Assembly: GCF_942548115.1 (NCBI RefSeq)
Contig: NZ_OW824151.1
Span: 744,001 to 808,000, forward strand
DNA from: Aeromicrobium sp. Leaf245
Lineage (GTDB): Bacteria; Actinomycetota; Actinomycetes; Propionibacteriales; Nocardioidaceae
Reading direction: 5' to 3'
Length of the DNA stretch: 64,000 nt
Shown here piece after piece: positions 1,417-41,304 of this stretch. Within the stretch, counting starts at the first letter, position 1; each line of letters starts with the position of its first letter. Made by a program: the position numbers and the translations under genes. Under the pieces are notes generated by a model that was not told the DNA's origin, did not search any database, and worked only from the letters and a program-made list of their open reading frames with translations.

Positions 1417-2520
1417 GTGAAGACTCCCAAGCGAACCCTCTTCGGCTCCCTGGCCGTCGCCGCCGTGCTGGCCACGGCGCTCGGCCAGCAGGCCAACGCC
1501 GCGCCGTCACCCGACGACGCCCCGCCCAAGGTCAGCATGCTCGGTGCGATGGAGCGCGACCTCGGACTCTCGGAGTCGCAGGCCAAGGCCCGCATCGCCG
1601 ACGAGGCCCAGGCCTCCAAGGCCGAGAAGTCGCTCGTCAAGAGCCTCGGCGCCGACTACGCCGGCTCCTGGTACGACGCGAAGAAGGGCACCCTCGTCGT
1701 CGCGGTGACCGATGCCGCCGCCGCCGAGGCCGTCACTGCGAAGGGCGCCGAGGCGCGCACCGTCGAGCGGTCGTCGTCGGAGCTGAACGGCTACATGAAG
1801 GACCTCAACGCGAAGAAGAGCGCAGCTCCCGACACCGTGGCCGGCTGGTACGTCGACGCCGAGTCCAACAAGGTCGTCCTTCTGACGCAGGACGTCGCCG
1901 CTGCCGAGGCGTTCGCCGAGAAGGCCGGCGTGCCGGCAGAGGCGTTCCAGGCCGAGGCCGCTCCCGAGCGTCCGCAGCCGCTCTACCAGGGCGGCGACGC
2001 CTACTACATCGGCGGCGCGCGCTGCTCCATCGGCTTCGCCGTCACGGGCGGCTTCGTGAGCGCCGGTCACTGCGGCACCACGGGCAGCACCACCTCGTCG
2101 CCGAGCGGCACGTTCGCCGGCTCGAGCTTCCCCGGCAACGACTACGCGTTCATCCGCTCGTCGGCGTCGATCACCGGCACCGTGAACAACTACAGCGGCG
2201 GCAGCGTCGCCGTCCGCGGATCCTCCAACGCGGCGATCGGGTCGTCGATCTGCCGCTCCGGCTCCACGACCGGCTGGCGCTGCGGCACCATCCAGGCCCG
2301 CAACTCCACGGTGAACTACGCCGAGGGCTCGGTGACCGGGCTCATCCGCACCACCGCGTGCGCCGAGCCGGGCGACTCGGGCGGATCGGCCATCTCCGGC
2401 AACCAGGCTCAGGGCGTCACCTCCGGTGGCTCCGGCAACTGCTCGGTCGGCGGGACGACGTACTTCCAGCCCGTCAACGAGATCCTCAGCGCCTATGGCC
2501 TGACCCTCAAGACCTCCTGA
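1417..2520 (+). CDS. secreted S1-family serine protease (streptogrisin/alpha-lytic type)
   Basis: Exported chymotrypsin-fold endopeptidase made as a preproprotein of 367 residues. Residues 1-28 form a signal peptide (KTPKR basic end, hydrophobic core, ANA cleavage site). A pro-region of about 155 residues follows, as in alpha-lytic protease. The mature domain begins near residue 185. The triad is visible: His218 in SAGHCG, Asp242 in NDYAF, Ser321 in GDSGGS. Cysteine pairs flank the His and Ser. The GTG start is chosen because GAAGGAGA lies 6-7 bases before it and the signal peptide begins there. It is followed by a strong terminator hairpin. Confidence 0.93.
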   Translation: MKTPKRTLFGSLAVAAVLATALGQQANAAPSPDDAPPKVSMLGAMERDLGLSESQAKARIADEAQASKAEKSLVKSLGADYAGSWYDAKKGTLVVAVTDAAAAEAVTAKGAEARTVERSSSELNGYMKDLNAKKSAAPDTVAGWYVDAESNKVVLLTQDVAAAEAFAEKAGVPAEAFQAEAAPERPQPLYQGGDAYYIGGARCSIGFAVTGGFVSAGHCGTTGSTTSSPSGTFAGSSFPGNDYAFIRSSASITGTVNNYSGGSVAVRGSSNAAIGSSICRSGSTTGWRCGTIQARNSTVNYAEGSVTGLIRTTACAEPGDSGGSAISGNQAQGVTSGGSGNCSVGGTTYFQPVNEILSAYGLTLKTS

Positions 2521-2537
2521 CCGGAGGAACCGCGCGC

Positions 2538-2584
2538 GGCGCGGACCCGGCACCCTCTTCCCCTGGAGGTGTCGGGTCCGCGCC
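2538..2584 (+). terminator. rho-independent-type hairpin after the S1 protease
   Basis: A 17-bp stem, with arms at 2538-2554 and 2568-2584 and one G-T mismatch, closes a 13-base loop 18 bases after the protease stop. Actinobacterial terminators often lack the U tract, as here. Confidence 0.7.
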
Positions 2585-2710
2585 GTTCGTCGTCTCGCGG
2601 GGGGTGCTCACGTGTTGCTGCGCTGCCTCGGCGGGACCGTCCTGGCTGCTGCGTCGCTGCGGGTGAGGCTTCGTGTGGTGGTGCGTCGCTGCGGCCGCGA
2701 GTGGACCTGC

Positions 2711-3135
2711 GCTCCGAAAGGGCCTCGACCGGAGCGGTGGGTCTCGCCTCGGGTGGGTCTGCGGGGCGCGGCCACGATTCTCCATTCGAGTGAGATCCAC
2801 GCACGATGCTTCTTTCTCGTGGACAGTGCCTCGCGAAGGAAGCATCGTGGCGACGGATCTGGCCTCTCAGGGGCAGTGATTCTCCATCGTCGTGGAACGG
2901 TCCACGAGAAGGGAGAATCCCTGCCCACCCGCCGTTCACCATCGCCCCGTCGGACGCAGGATTCTGCCTTCGCGCACAGCGATCCGAACGATGCTGCGTT
3001 CCGCACCGGATCCCGTAGCAAACGCAGCATCCTTCGACCCTTCGCGCACGAACGCAGAATCTTGCGTCCCCCGAGCCGCGCTCCGACCGCTCGCCCGACC
3101 CCGGACTTCGCCGCCGGTCGAGGCCCTTTCGGAGC
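2711..3135. repeat. composite hairpin element, copy 1 (inverted ends enclosing nested hairpins)
   Basis: Non-coding. The ends are a 22-bp perfect inverted repeat (2711-2732 and 3114-3135; core CTCCGAAAGGGCCTCGACC) that extends outward to about 34 bp with one mismatch. Inside lie three palindromic units. The first is an 11-bp perfect stem (2802-2812/2839-2849). The second has GATTCTCC/GGAGAATC arms (2878-2885/2912-2919) around a CGTGGA/TCCACG stem. The third is a nested pair: outer 2955-2967/3054-3066, inner GATGCTGCGTT/AACGCAGCATC (2990-3000/3021-3031). The remaining gap, 2585-2710 and 3136-3375, holds GC-rich imperfect GCTGCTGCG-type repeats. A homologue in inverse orientation lies at 27.5 kb and a relative at 40.9 kb. 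Confidence 0.85.
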
Positions 3136-3222
3136 GCAGGTCGACTCGCAGCCACAGCGGCGCAGCAGCAGGCGAAGACCCACCCGAAACACCGCAGCCG
3201 CAAGGCACGACCCACCCGCAGC

Positions 3223-3251
3223 AGATCGCGCCGACGCCCTCGGCGCGATCT
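3223..3251. terminator. perfect 12-bp hairpin upstream of the lysC promoter
   Basis: AGATCGCGCCGA at 3223-3234 pairs perfectly with 3240-3251 across a 5-base loop. It lies between the composite repeat and a TAGCAT box at 3301-3306 that could be the lysC -10 element. It would insulate lysC from upstream transcription. Confidence 0.55.
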
Positions 3252-3375
3252 CGCGGTCCCACGGCAGGAACGACGGTGGAGGCGGCCTGTCGCAGGCCGG
3301 TAGCATGGACGACGTTGCCCGGTCAGCGTCGCCCTGGCACGGTCCACCCCACCCCCGCACCTCAAGGACATCGTC

Positions 3376-5853
<2,478 letters not shown>

Positions 5854-27377: not shown

Positions 27378-27518
27378 CGGGCGGTTCGTCGGGCGGCGTC
27401 GGTCGGGTGGGCCCTCGCTTGCTGCTGCGTCGTTCGGCCGGGCCTTCGCCTGCTGCTGCGGCGGTCGATCGGGCTCTCGCTCGCTGCCGCGTCGCTGTGG
27501 CTGAGAGTCGCGGTGGCG

Positions 27519-27772
27519 TCCGAAAGGGCCTCGACCGGCTGAGGGGTCCGGTGTCGGGCGAGCACGCGGGGTGCGGCCCGGCCCACGCAAGATTCTGCGT
27601 TCTCGCGTCCGAGCTCGAAGGATGCTGCGTTCGCCACGAGATCCCGCAGGAAACGCAGCATCGTTCGGGTTCTCGCGCGCGAAGGCAGGATCGTGCGTCC
27701 GACGGGCGGCGTGACGCTCGGGCGGTCGACGATTCTCCCTCGGCGTGGGACGGTCCACGAGAAGGGAGAATC
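27519..27772. repeat. composite hairpin element, copy 2 (one end missing)
   Basis: Starts with TCCGAAAGGGCCTCGACCGG (27519-27538), the same end as copy 1. A nested hairpin follows, outer 27586-27598/27685-27697 and inner GATGCTGCGTT/AACGCAGCATC (27621-27631/27652-27662), then the GATTCTCC/GGAGAATC unit (27731-27738/27765-27772) with CGTGG/CCACG inside. Order and sequence match copy 1 read backwards. No right-hand end is seen before the ssuB stop at 27804. The preceding 27378-27518 holds three degenerate repeats built on CTCGC-CTGCTGCTGCG. Confidence 0.85.
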
Positions 27773-40928: not shown

Positions 40929-41183
40929 GGCCTCCGAAAGGGCCTCGACGGAACGGGGGCGCCGGGCTCGATCGGGCCTCCCGGCTGCGGGTCCACGCGT
41001 TCTGACGACTTCGTGTCGATTTCTCTGCGAGGGATCGACACGAACTCGTCAAAACGCGTGTTCTGGACAGTTCCGGGGCATCTGGACCCCGATCCGTGCC
41101 CCGGAAGTGTCCAGAACGGGATGACGGCCCGGGGGCTCGGTCGGGGCGCTGGGTCCGCTCCGGTCGAGGCCCTTTCGGAGGCC
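40929..41183. repeat. composite hairpin element, copy 3 (different hairpins inside the same ends)
   Basis: Ends GGCCTCCGAAAGGGCCTCGA at 40929-40948 and its inverted match to 41183 are the same as in copies 1 and 2. The two hairpins inside differ. One has 25-bp arms with two mismatches (40996-41020/41034-41058; core TTCGTGTCGAT). The other has 21-bp arms with one mismatch (41060-41080/41097-41117; core GGACAGTTCCGGGGCA). They abut. 40796-40928 carries degenerate repeats of a CCTGCGGCTGCGCTCCGTCG unit. 41184-41262 shows GTCTCGATAC...ACTCGAC, resembling a common actinobacterial palindrome. Confidence 0.85.
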
Positions 41184-41262
41184 GACCGCCTCGAGGCGGC
41201 GGGGTCTGGACGCTCTCGTGGTCTCGATACAGCAGGACGCCTTCGGCGTGCACCACTCGACC

Positions 41263-41304
41263 CGCCTGAACCGTTCCCTCGCTGCGCTCGGTCAGGTTCA
41301 GGCG
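41263..41304 (-). terminator. galE terminator overlapping its stop codon
   Basis: CGCCTGAACC (41263-41272) pairs perfectly with GGTTCAGGCG (41295-41304), which includes the galE stop. The loop contains CTCGCTGCGCTCGG. Confidence 0.6.

Follow-up and report, generated by a model that had tools for sequence, protein, structure and literature searches.

A clade-restricted family of intergenic mosaic repeats in Aeromicrobium, with constant inverted ends enclosing varying hairpin cassettes

The window analysed here is a stretch of 64,000 nucleotides, positions 744001–808000 of the single 3,463,989-bp contig that forms the host genome (G000). At 2.7 kb it holds an intergenic element, copy A, between two tandem genes, with a core at 2712–3134. 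The 29-mer at 2704–2732 is matched by its exact reverse complement at 3114–3142, and the inverted arm reaches 36 bp from 2697 with one mismatch; the first-pass annotation had recognised this perfect inverted repeat but, on these measurements, understated it at 22 bp (34 bp with one mismatch). Longer outer inverted arms of copy A, 103 nt and 80% complementary, start at 2630 and end at 3216. Inside the frame, the nested hairpins described earlier were located as two hairpins plus a nested pair (Table 1). A separate 18-bp hairpin (94% complementary; window 2537–2585) stands between the 3′ side of an alpha-lytic-type protease gene and copy A, so that this gene has a terminator-like stem of its own.

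Table 1. Features of the three element copies in the window.
Feature	Position in window	Strand	Support
Copy A left outer arm, degenerate repeat array, inverted relative to right array	2630..2711	+	inverted arms; flank profile of 81 G000 ends
Copy A left constant 19-bp end, within perfect 29-bp arm 2704–2732	2712..2730	+
Copy A hairpin cassette, GATGCTTC type	2802..2849	.
Copy A hairpin cassette, GATTCTCC type	2871..2926	.	23/28 arm positions pair
Copy A nested cassette, outer hairpin, GATTCTGC type	2952..3069	.
Copy A inner hairpin within 2952–3069, GATGCTGCGTT type	2985..3036	.	20/26 arm positions pair
Copy A right constant 19-bp end	3116..3134	-
Copy A right outer arm	3135..3216	-	inverted arms; flank profile
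Copy B left end, 1 mismatch	27518..27536	+
Copy B nested hairpin cassette, inner hairpin about 27616–27667	27584..27699	.	42/58 arm positions pair
Copy B hairpin cassette, GATTCTCC type	27731..27772	.	16/21 arm positions pair
Copy C left end, 1 mismatch	40932..40950	+
Copy C hairpin, differing from copy A hairpins	40994..41060	.	28/33 arm positions pair
Copy C second hairpin, GGACAGTTCCGG type, present in L048 and L083 too	41060..41117	.
Copy C right end	41162..41180	-

The window does hold three copies, as first reported, all of them intergenic and two (B and C) between convergent genes. The description of copy B needs one correction: its left end is present, and a right end was looked for and not found. 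Directly beyond the right end of copy C lies a GGTCTCGATAC...CACTCGACC repeat (window 41219–41265), which is also present in the gap of a second Aeromicrobium genome, G005; similar repeats exist in actinobacteria. The earlier judgement that copy A has no convincing coding capacity held: seven ORFs of 100 aa or more overlap 2630–3216, none matched a Pfam family at E 0.01, and a degraded protein gene was rejected on this ground. A plasmid or phage origin was also rejected, because 2690–3150 had no blastn match in 72,556 plasmid and 50,697 phage records.

Searching the whole 3.46-Mb genome with the 22-bp end, as the first-pass annotation had proposed, gave counts far above control: 75 matches at up to three mismatches and none with the reversed pattern, which excludes chance recurrence of the ends (the search misses ends with more than three mismatches or an indel, such as those of the decayed frames L350 and L353–L355). 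The consensus end gave 81 matches, against 0 for its reversed control. Both of the grounds that had been named for abandoning an element family fell away, since the ends do not occur at control frequency and no remnant of a protein gene was found in the region. The most conserved stretch is the 19-bp end, CTCCGAAAGGGCCTCGACC, each base of which is kept in 85–100% of 81 G000 ends and 79–100% of 94 G005 ends; these ends were picked with up to two mismatches, a selection that inflates per-base conservation. Beyond the ends lie degenerate arrays of units of about 32–34 bp, inverted between the two sides.

When ends with up to four mismatches were paired inwards in the fetched G000 and G005 stretches, 72 pairs were obtained, 69 of 245–586 bp and three of ~1.5 kb. 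Sixty-four of the 69 fall into a single similarity cluster and five, copy C included, have only the frame in common; mean column identity is 87% among 18 full-size G000 copies. The end unit is repeated at steps of ~108–109 bp in several copies. L066 (1490–2023) has three consecutive left ends at ~109-bp steps and then one hairpin set, and end doublets occur in L060, L062, L080 and L082, the last at 140 bp. These multiple ends look like tandem duplication of an end-plus-spacer unit.

Hairpin sets and their order differ between copies within this one frame. The initial picture of hairpins as cassettes in a fixed frame is thus borne out by a conserved 19-bp end, interior sets that vary and hairpins that also occur frameless. 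In G000 the nested type stands by itself at L347 and L349, a simple type at L348 and another at L351 (called frameless because the gap holds no end at three mismatches), and G042 likewise has frameless hairpins at L143 and L180. The GGTGGATC hairpin type occurs in 19 of 49 genomes of the genus, 15 of which have no ends; G011 has 21 matches to it and no ends, and the single G011 locus examined consists of plain hairpins. The GATTCTTCC-type motif was found only in G000, G005 and G042 among 58 relatives searched, a set that did not include G065. Across 76 distinct hairpins, admitted beforehand only if 8 or more of 13 positions paired, the arms pair at 0.856 of positions versus 0.769 when arms are shuffled among copies (maximum 0.795 in 500 shuffles).

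Single palindromes of ~60–75 bp, differing in sequence (by eye), were also seen in the gap downstream of trmH in genus members without the family (L268, L283, L284, L286, L291 and L293), so that palindromes may be customary at the 3′ ends of genes throughout the genus. A further palindrome, GGGAGATTCCCAGGTCGACCTGGGAATCTCCC, adjoins an element in G000 and is present in an element-free G005 gap (L064, L301).

The family is clade-restricted within Aeromicrobium. Ends with at most one mismatch were found in four of 49 genomes (75 in G000, 88 in G005, 75 in G042 and 96 in G065) and in none of the remaining 45, and among 148 other Nocardioidaceae genomes one had a single stray match. At two mismatches, in 39 genomes, G020 and G038 gave one match each, with no second end nearby. 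The exact 21-mer was found in 83 stretches of named records, searched with the window's own genome left out; the best 80 of the 83, through which these two genomes were sampled, all belonged to Aeromicrobium sp. CnD17-E or a Lake Pavin MAG, which we infer to be G042 and G065, respectively.

Empty sites, which the first-pass annotation had suggested seeking in sister strains, exist in sister species, most clearly at L066 (a gap of 936 bp versus 55 bp in CnD17-E and 58 bp in Pavin) and L081 (623 bp versus 26 bp in Pavin). No end was found in the matching gap in 10 of 32 comparisons of G000 sites, and the G005 gap that matches copy B holds a decayed frame. No target site duplication was definable, the empty sites having been compared by eye, with borders blurred by the outer arrays and by divergent gaps. 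At the trmH–epimerase gap that holds copy C, the four element-bearing genomes have remnants of one interior (by eye), G042 without ends; in the 26 other genus genomes with this locus, 21 gaps are of at most 120 bp, three are longer and two unclear.

Counted in the fetched stretches, both flanking genes of the 50 G000 sites are shared with an element site in 11 cases in G005, 5 in CnD17-E and 7 in Pavin. Full occupancy among these three close species is biased, as most of the stretches taken from them had been selected because they contain ends. The 116 distinct paired elements, four of them oriented with low confidence, include 49 pairs with both flanking genes in common. Within the three close species, 37 of 38 pairs have kept their orientation, and flipping of the interior was rejected on this count. 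Pairs involving G000 have the same orientation in 4 of 11 cases and the opposite in 7, so that for G000 separate insertion is as good an explanation as common descent. The copy at the matching site was the best match in the other genome in 3 of the 49 pairs (median rank 11 among 27–39).

At the 13 sites common to CnD17-E and G005, median element identity is 0.792, compared with 0.711 for random pairs and 0.872 at fourfold positions of the flanking genes, and some orthology signal therefore persists at matching sites. Nine of these elements fall more than 0.05 below the fourfold identity of their flanking genes; the other four are within 0.05 of it or above, one of them at 0.95. Between G005 and Pavin the element median of 0.776 is near the fourfold value of 0.785, with no excess change, so that change faster than neutral is clear only in the closest pair. 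Low identity at matching sites comes partly from length change, with hairpins lost or gained. Across the three close species, then, sites and orientation are stable and interiors are usually closer to copies at non-matching sites. The retention of site and orientation by copies that are seldom each other's best match indicates that in these close species the sites are inherited and their contents partly exchanged or homogenised.

We favour, at a probability of about 0.6, the reading that the family consists of non-coding, non-autonomous intergenic mosaic repeats with past mobilisation in trans at the ends, vertical inheritance and homogenisation by gene conversion. The anatomy, the clade restriction, the intergenic placement with its convergent excess, the solo cassettes and the empty sites are observed. 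The frame is made up of the outer inverted degenerate arrays (~32–34-bp units) and the constant 19-bp end, and it encloses hairpin cassettes of several types that exist as solitary palindromic repeats as well. Copies would once have been placed in trans, by a transposase or recombinase with the constant ends as its substrate; frames would have gained cassettes when solitary hairpins inserted into them or recombined with them; and copies would now pass down by vertical descent, with ectopic gene conversion homogenising them. That the ends were once mobilised in trans is probable; neither a transposase with these ends nor a target duplication was found, so that the case for mobility rests on the empty sites and the copy number. 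Putative host effects, on RNA 3′ ends or through cruciforms between convergent genes, are unproven and would be secondary.

RAYT is the transposase usually invoked for such repeats. No RAYT (Y1_Tnp, PF01797) was found in 19 genomes that included G000, G005 and G042, with G065 outside the set; as a control, the search was positive in 5 of 14 named genomes. A RAYT-driven REPIN was rejected on this result for three of the four hosts, which points to an as yet unnamed mobiliser or to recombination alone. In the fetched stretches no transposase gene lies between ends, except an IS30-family insertion in three G005 copies.

That insertion encodes a 342-aa transposase with HTH_38 and rve domains and sits in element hairpin stems in all three full G005 copies (L088, L089 and L090). 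In G065 (L313, L315, L317, L318 and L320) four IS30-family fragments at contig edges adjoin these same hairpins; a full copy, L313, is located elsewhere. A 3-bp CTG repeat was seen by eye on both sides of two of the G005 copies. IS elements are already known to insert into palindromic repeats (PMC1525189, in part).

An unlikely alternative is a classical MITE family, in which a deleted transposon has 19–36-bp inverted ends bound by a transposase and an ordinary interior that diverged after insertion. Several features seen here are those of such a family, namely inverted ends conserved at either side, a lack of coding capacity, dispersal of the copies and empty sites. Against it, the interiors are not variants of a single sequence (the frame is all that 5 of 69 pairs have in common), the hairpins also occur alone and the outer arrays extend beyond the ends. 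Nor did the fetched stretches contain a duplication or a parent element: the three 1.5-kb G005 pairs, considered as an autonomous version, were rejected as such, being elements with the foreign IS30-family insertion in a hairpin stem. Decidedly unlikely, too, is a non-coding cassette system, by analogy with integrons, in which some recombinase would recognise ends or hairpins and capture or exchange cassettes inside fixed chromosomal frames. Were this true, sites and orientation would persist and contents turn over, as an integron does with genes.

None of 158 element sites in the four genomes (50, 53, 21 and 34 sites) lies inside a called gene. These sites comprise 61 convergent, 81 tandem and 16 divergent gene pairs, compared with 73, 361 and 95 among 529 element-free pairs in the same stretches; in G000 alone the counts are 24, 24 and 2 (n = 50) against a background of 14, 69 and 21 (n = 104). 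Genes were called by a simple codon-position method, sites common to several species are counted in each genome, and a site was dropped if a called gene was lacking on either side or if its gap exceeded 2,500 bp. The association with intergenic and convergent sites could be only a matter of tolerance. Copy A folds more strongly than every one of 100 dinucleotide shuffles, with z −14.6 for RNA and −11.9 for DNA. G–U and A–C cells number 19 versus 13 on pairs found from both strands and 97 versus 62 on the union, and so there is no clear strand preference.

Both sets of observations bear on selected bidirectional transcription terminators or insulators, kept between convergent genes for their RNA hairpins on both strands. 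The convergent excess (61 of 158 sites versus 73 of 529 pairs, with sites common to species counted repeatedly) and the folding of both strands, with similar wobble and A–C cells on both-strand pairs (19 and 13), speak for this explanation, which we nevertheless regard as improbable: 81 of the 158 sites are tandem and 16 divergent, sister species have gaps of only 26–58 bp at two such sites, and 2400–3500, which covers copy A only, holds no terminator-like site of a GC-rich stem plus T run (shuffle mean 0.3). Moreover, a stem of 8 bp or longer lies no more than 75 nt from the stop in 0.146 of 199 element-facing genes and 0.148 of 135 others; replacement of terminators by elements was rejected, as the genes' own 3′ hairpins are equally frequent with or without a facing element. 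Strand-specific structured RNAs or small RNA genes, suggested by the very strong predicted fold (z −14.6) and by the lean towards G–U on the union of folds (97 versus 62), which folding itself may cause, are highly improbable given 19 versus 13 cells on both-strand pairs, mixed orientation relative to tandem genes (31 co, 26 anti), only two tRNAs, none in the element, as Rfam matches at gathering score in the 64-kb window, and no sigma-70-like promoter in 2400–3500 (a weak test in this phylum).

The family offers a countable system in which to follow the combination and spread of intergenic palindromes. Its hairpins are seen alone, inside frames and in frameless relatives, and close species have common sites, often without common contents. 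The first-pass annotation knew of no described element of this kind, a view that stands for the family itself, no description of Aeromicrobium or nocardioid palindromic repeats having been found in openly licensed papers, and falls for the plan, which resembles that of NIMEs and BIMEs. In the portions of PMC3898611 available to us, neisserial intergenic mosaic elements (NIMEs, dRS3 plus RS repeats) are non-coding intergenic combinations of short constant inverted repeats, dRS3 being ATTCCC(N8)GGGAAT, with variable repeat families. Our elements likewise have constant inverted repeats flanking interchangeable units in intergenic space; unlike the NIMEs of those portions, their end CTCCGAAAGGGCCTCGACC is not dRS3 but a different 19-mer inside a longer arm, their interiors are hairpins also found alone and their host is an actinomycete.

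BIMEs are mosaics of palindromic units (PMC2817692, in part), and BIMEs or REP dimers lie mostly between convergent or co-directional genes (PMC2817692 and PMC3733652, in the parts available). The present family shares the mosaic of palindromic units and a similar placement in gene gaps, but REPs are units of 20–40 bp, whereas here constant ends and outer arrays hold several hairpin types over ~245–590 bp and, unlike REP/REPIN systems, no RAYT was found (G000, G005 and G042). Bacterial MITEs such as Correia/NEMIS have terminal inverted repeats and are non-coding, dispersed and foldable, as far as the available parts of PMC3733652 and PMC3898611 go. The elements here also have a terminal inverted repeat (a 29-bp perfect arm, the MITE criterion being 15–30 bp) and no coding capacity. 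Unlike MITEs, which are of 70–300 bp with one interior, and in Correia a TA target duplication, they have interchangeable interiors, no demonstrated duplication and, in the fetched stretches, no autonomous relative with the same ends. The element family is thus new, and the general kind to which it belongs, the intergenic mosaic repeat, is already known.
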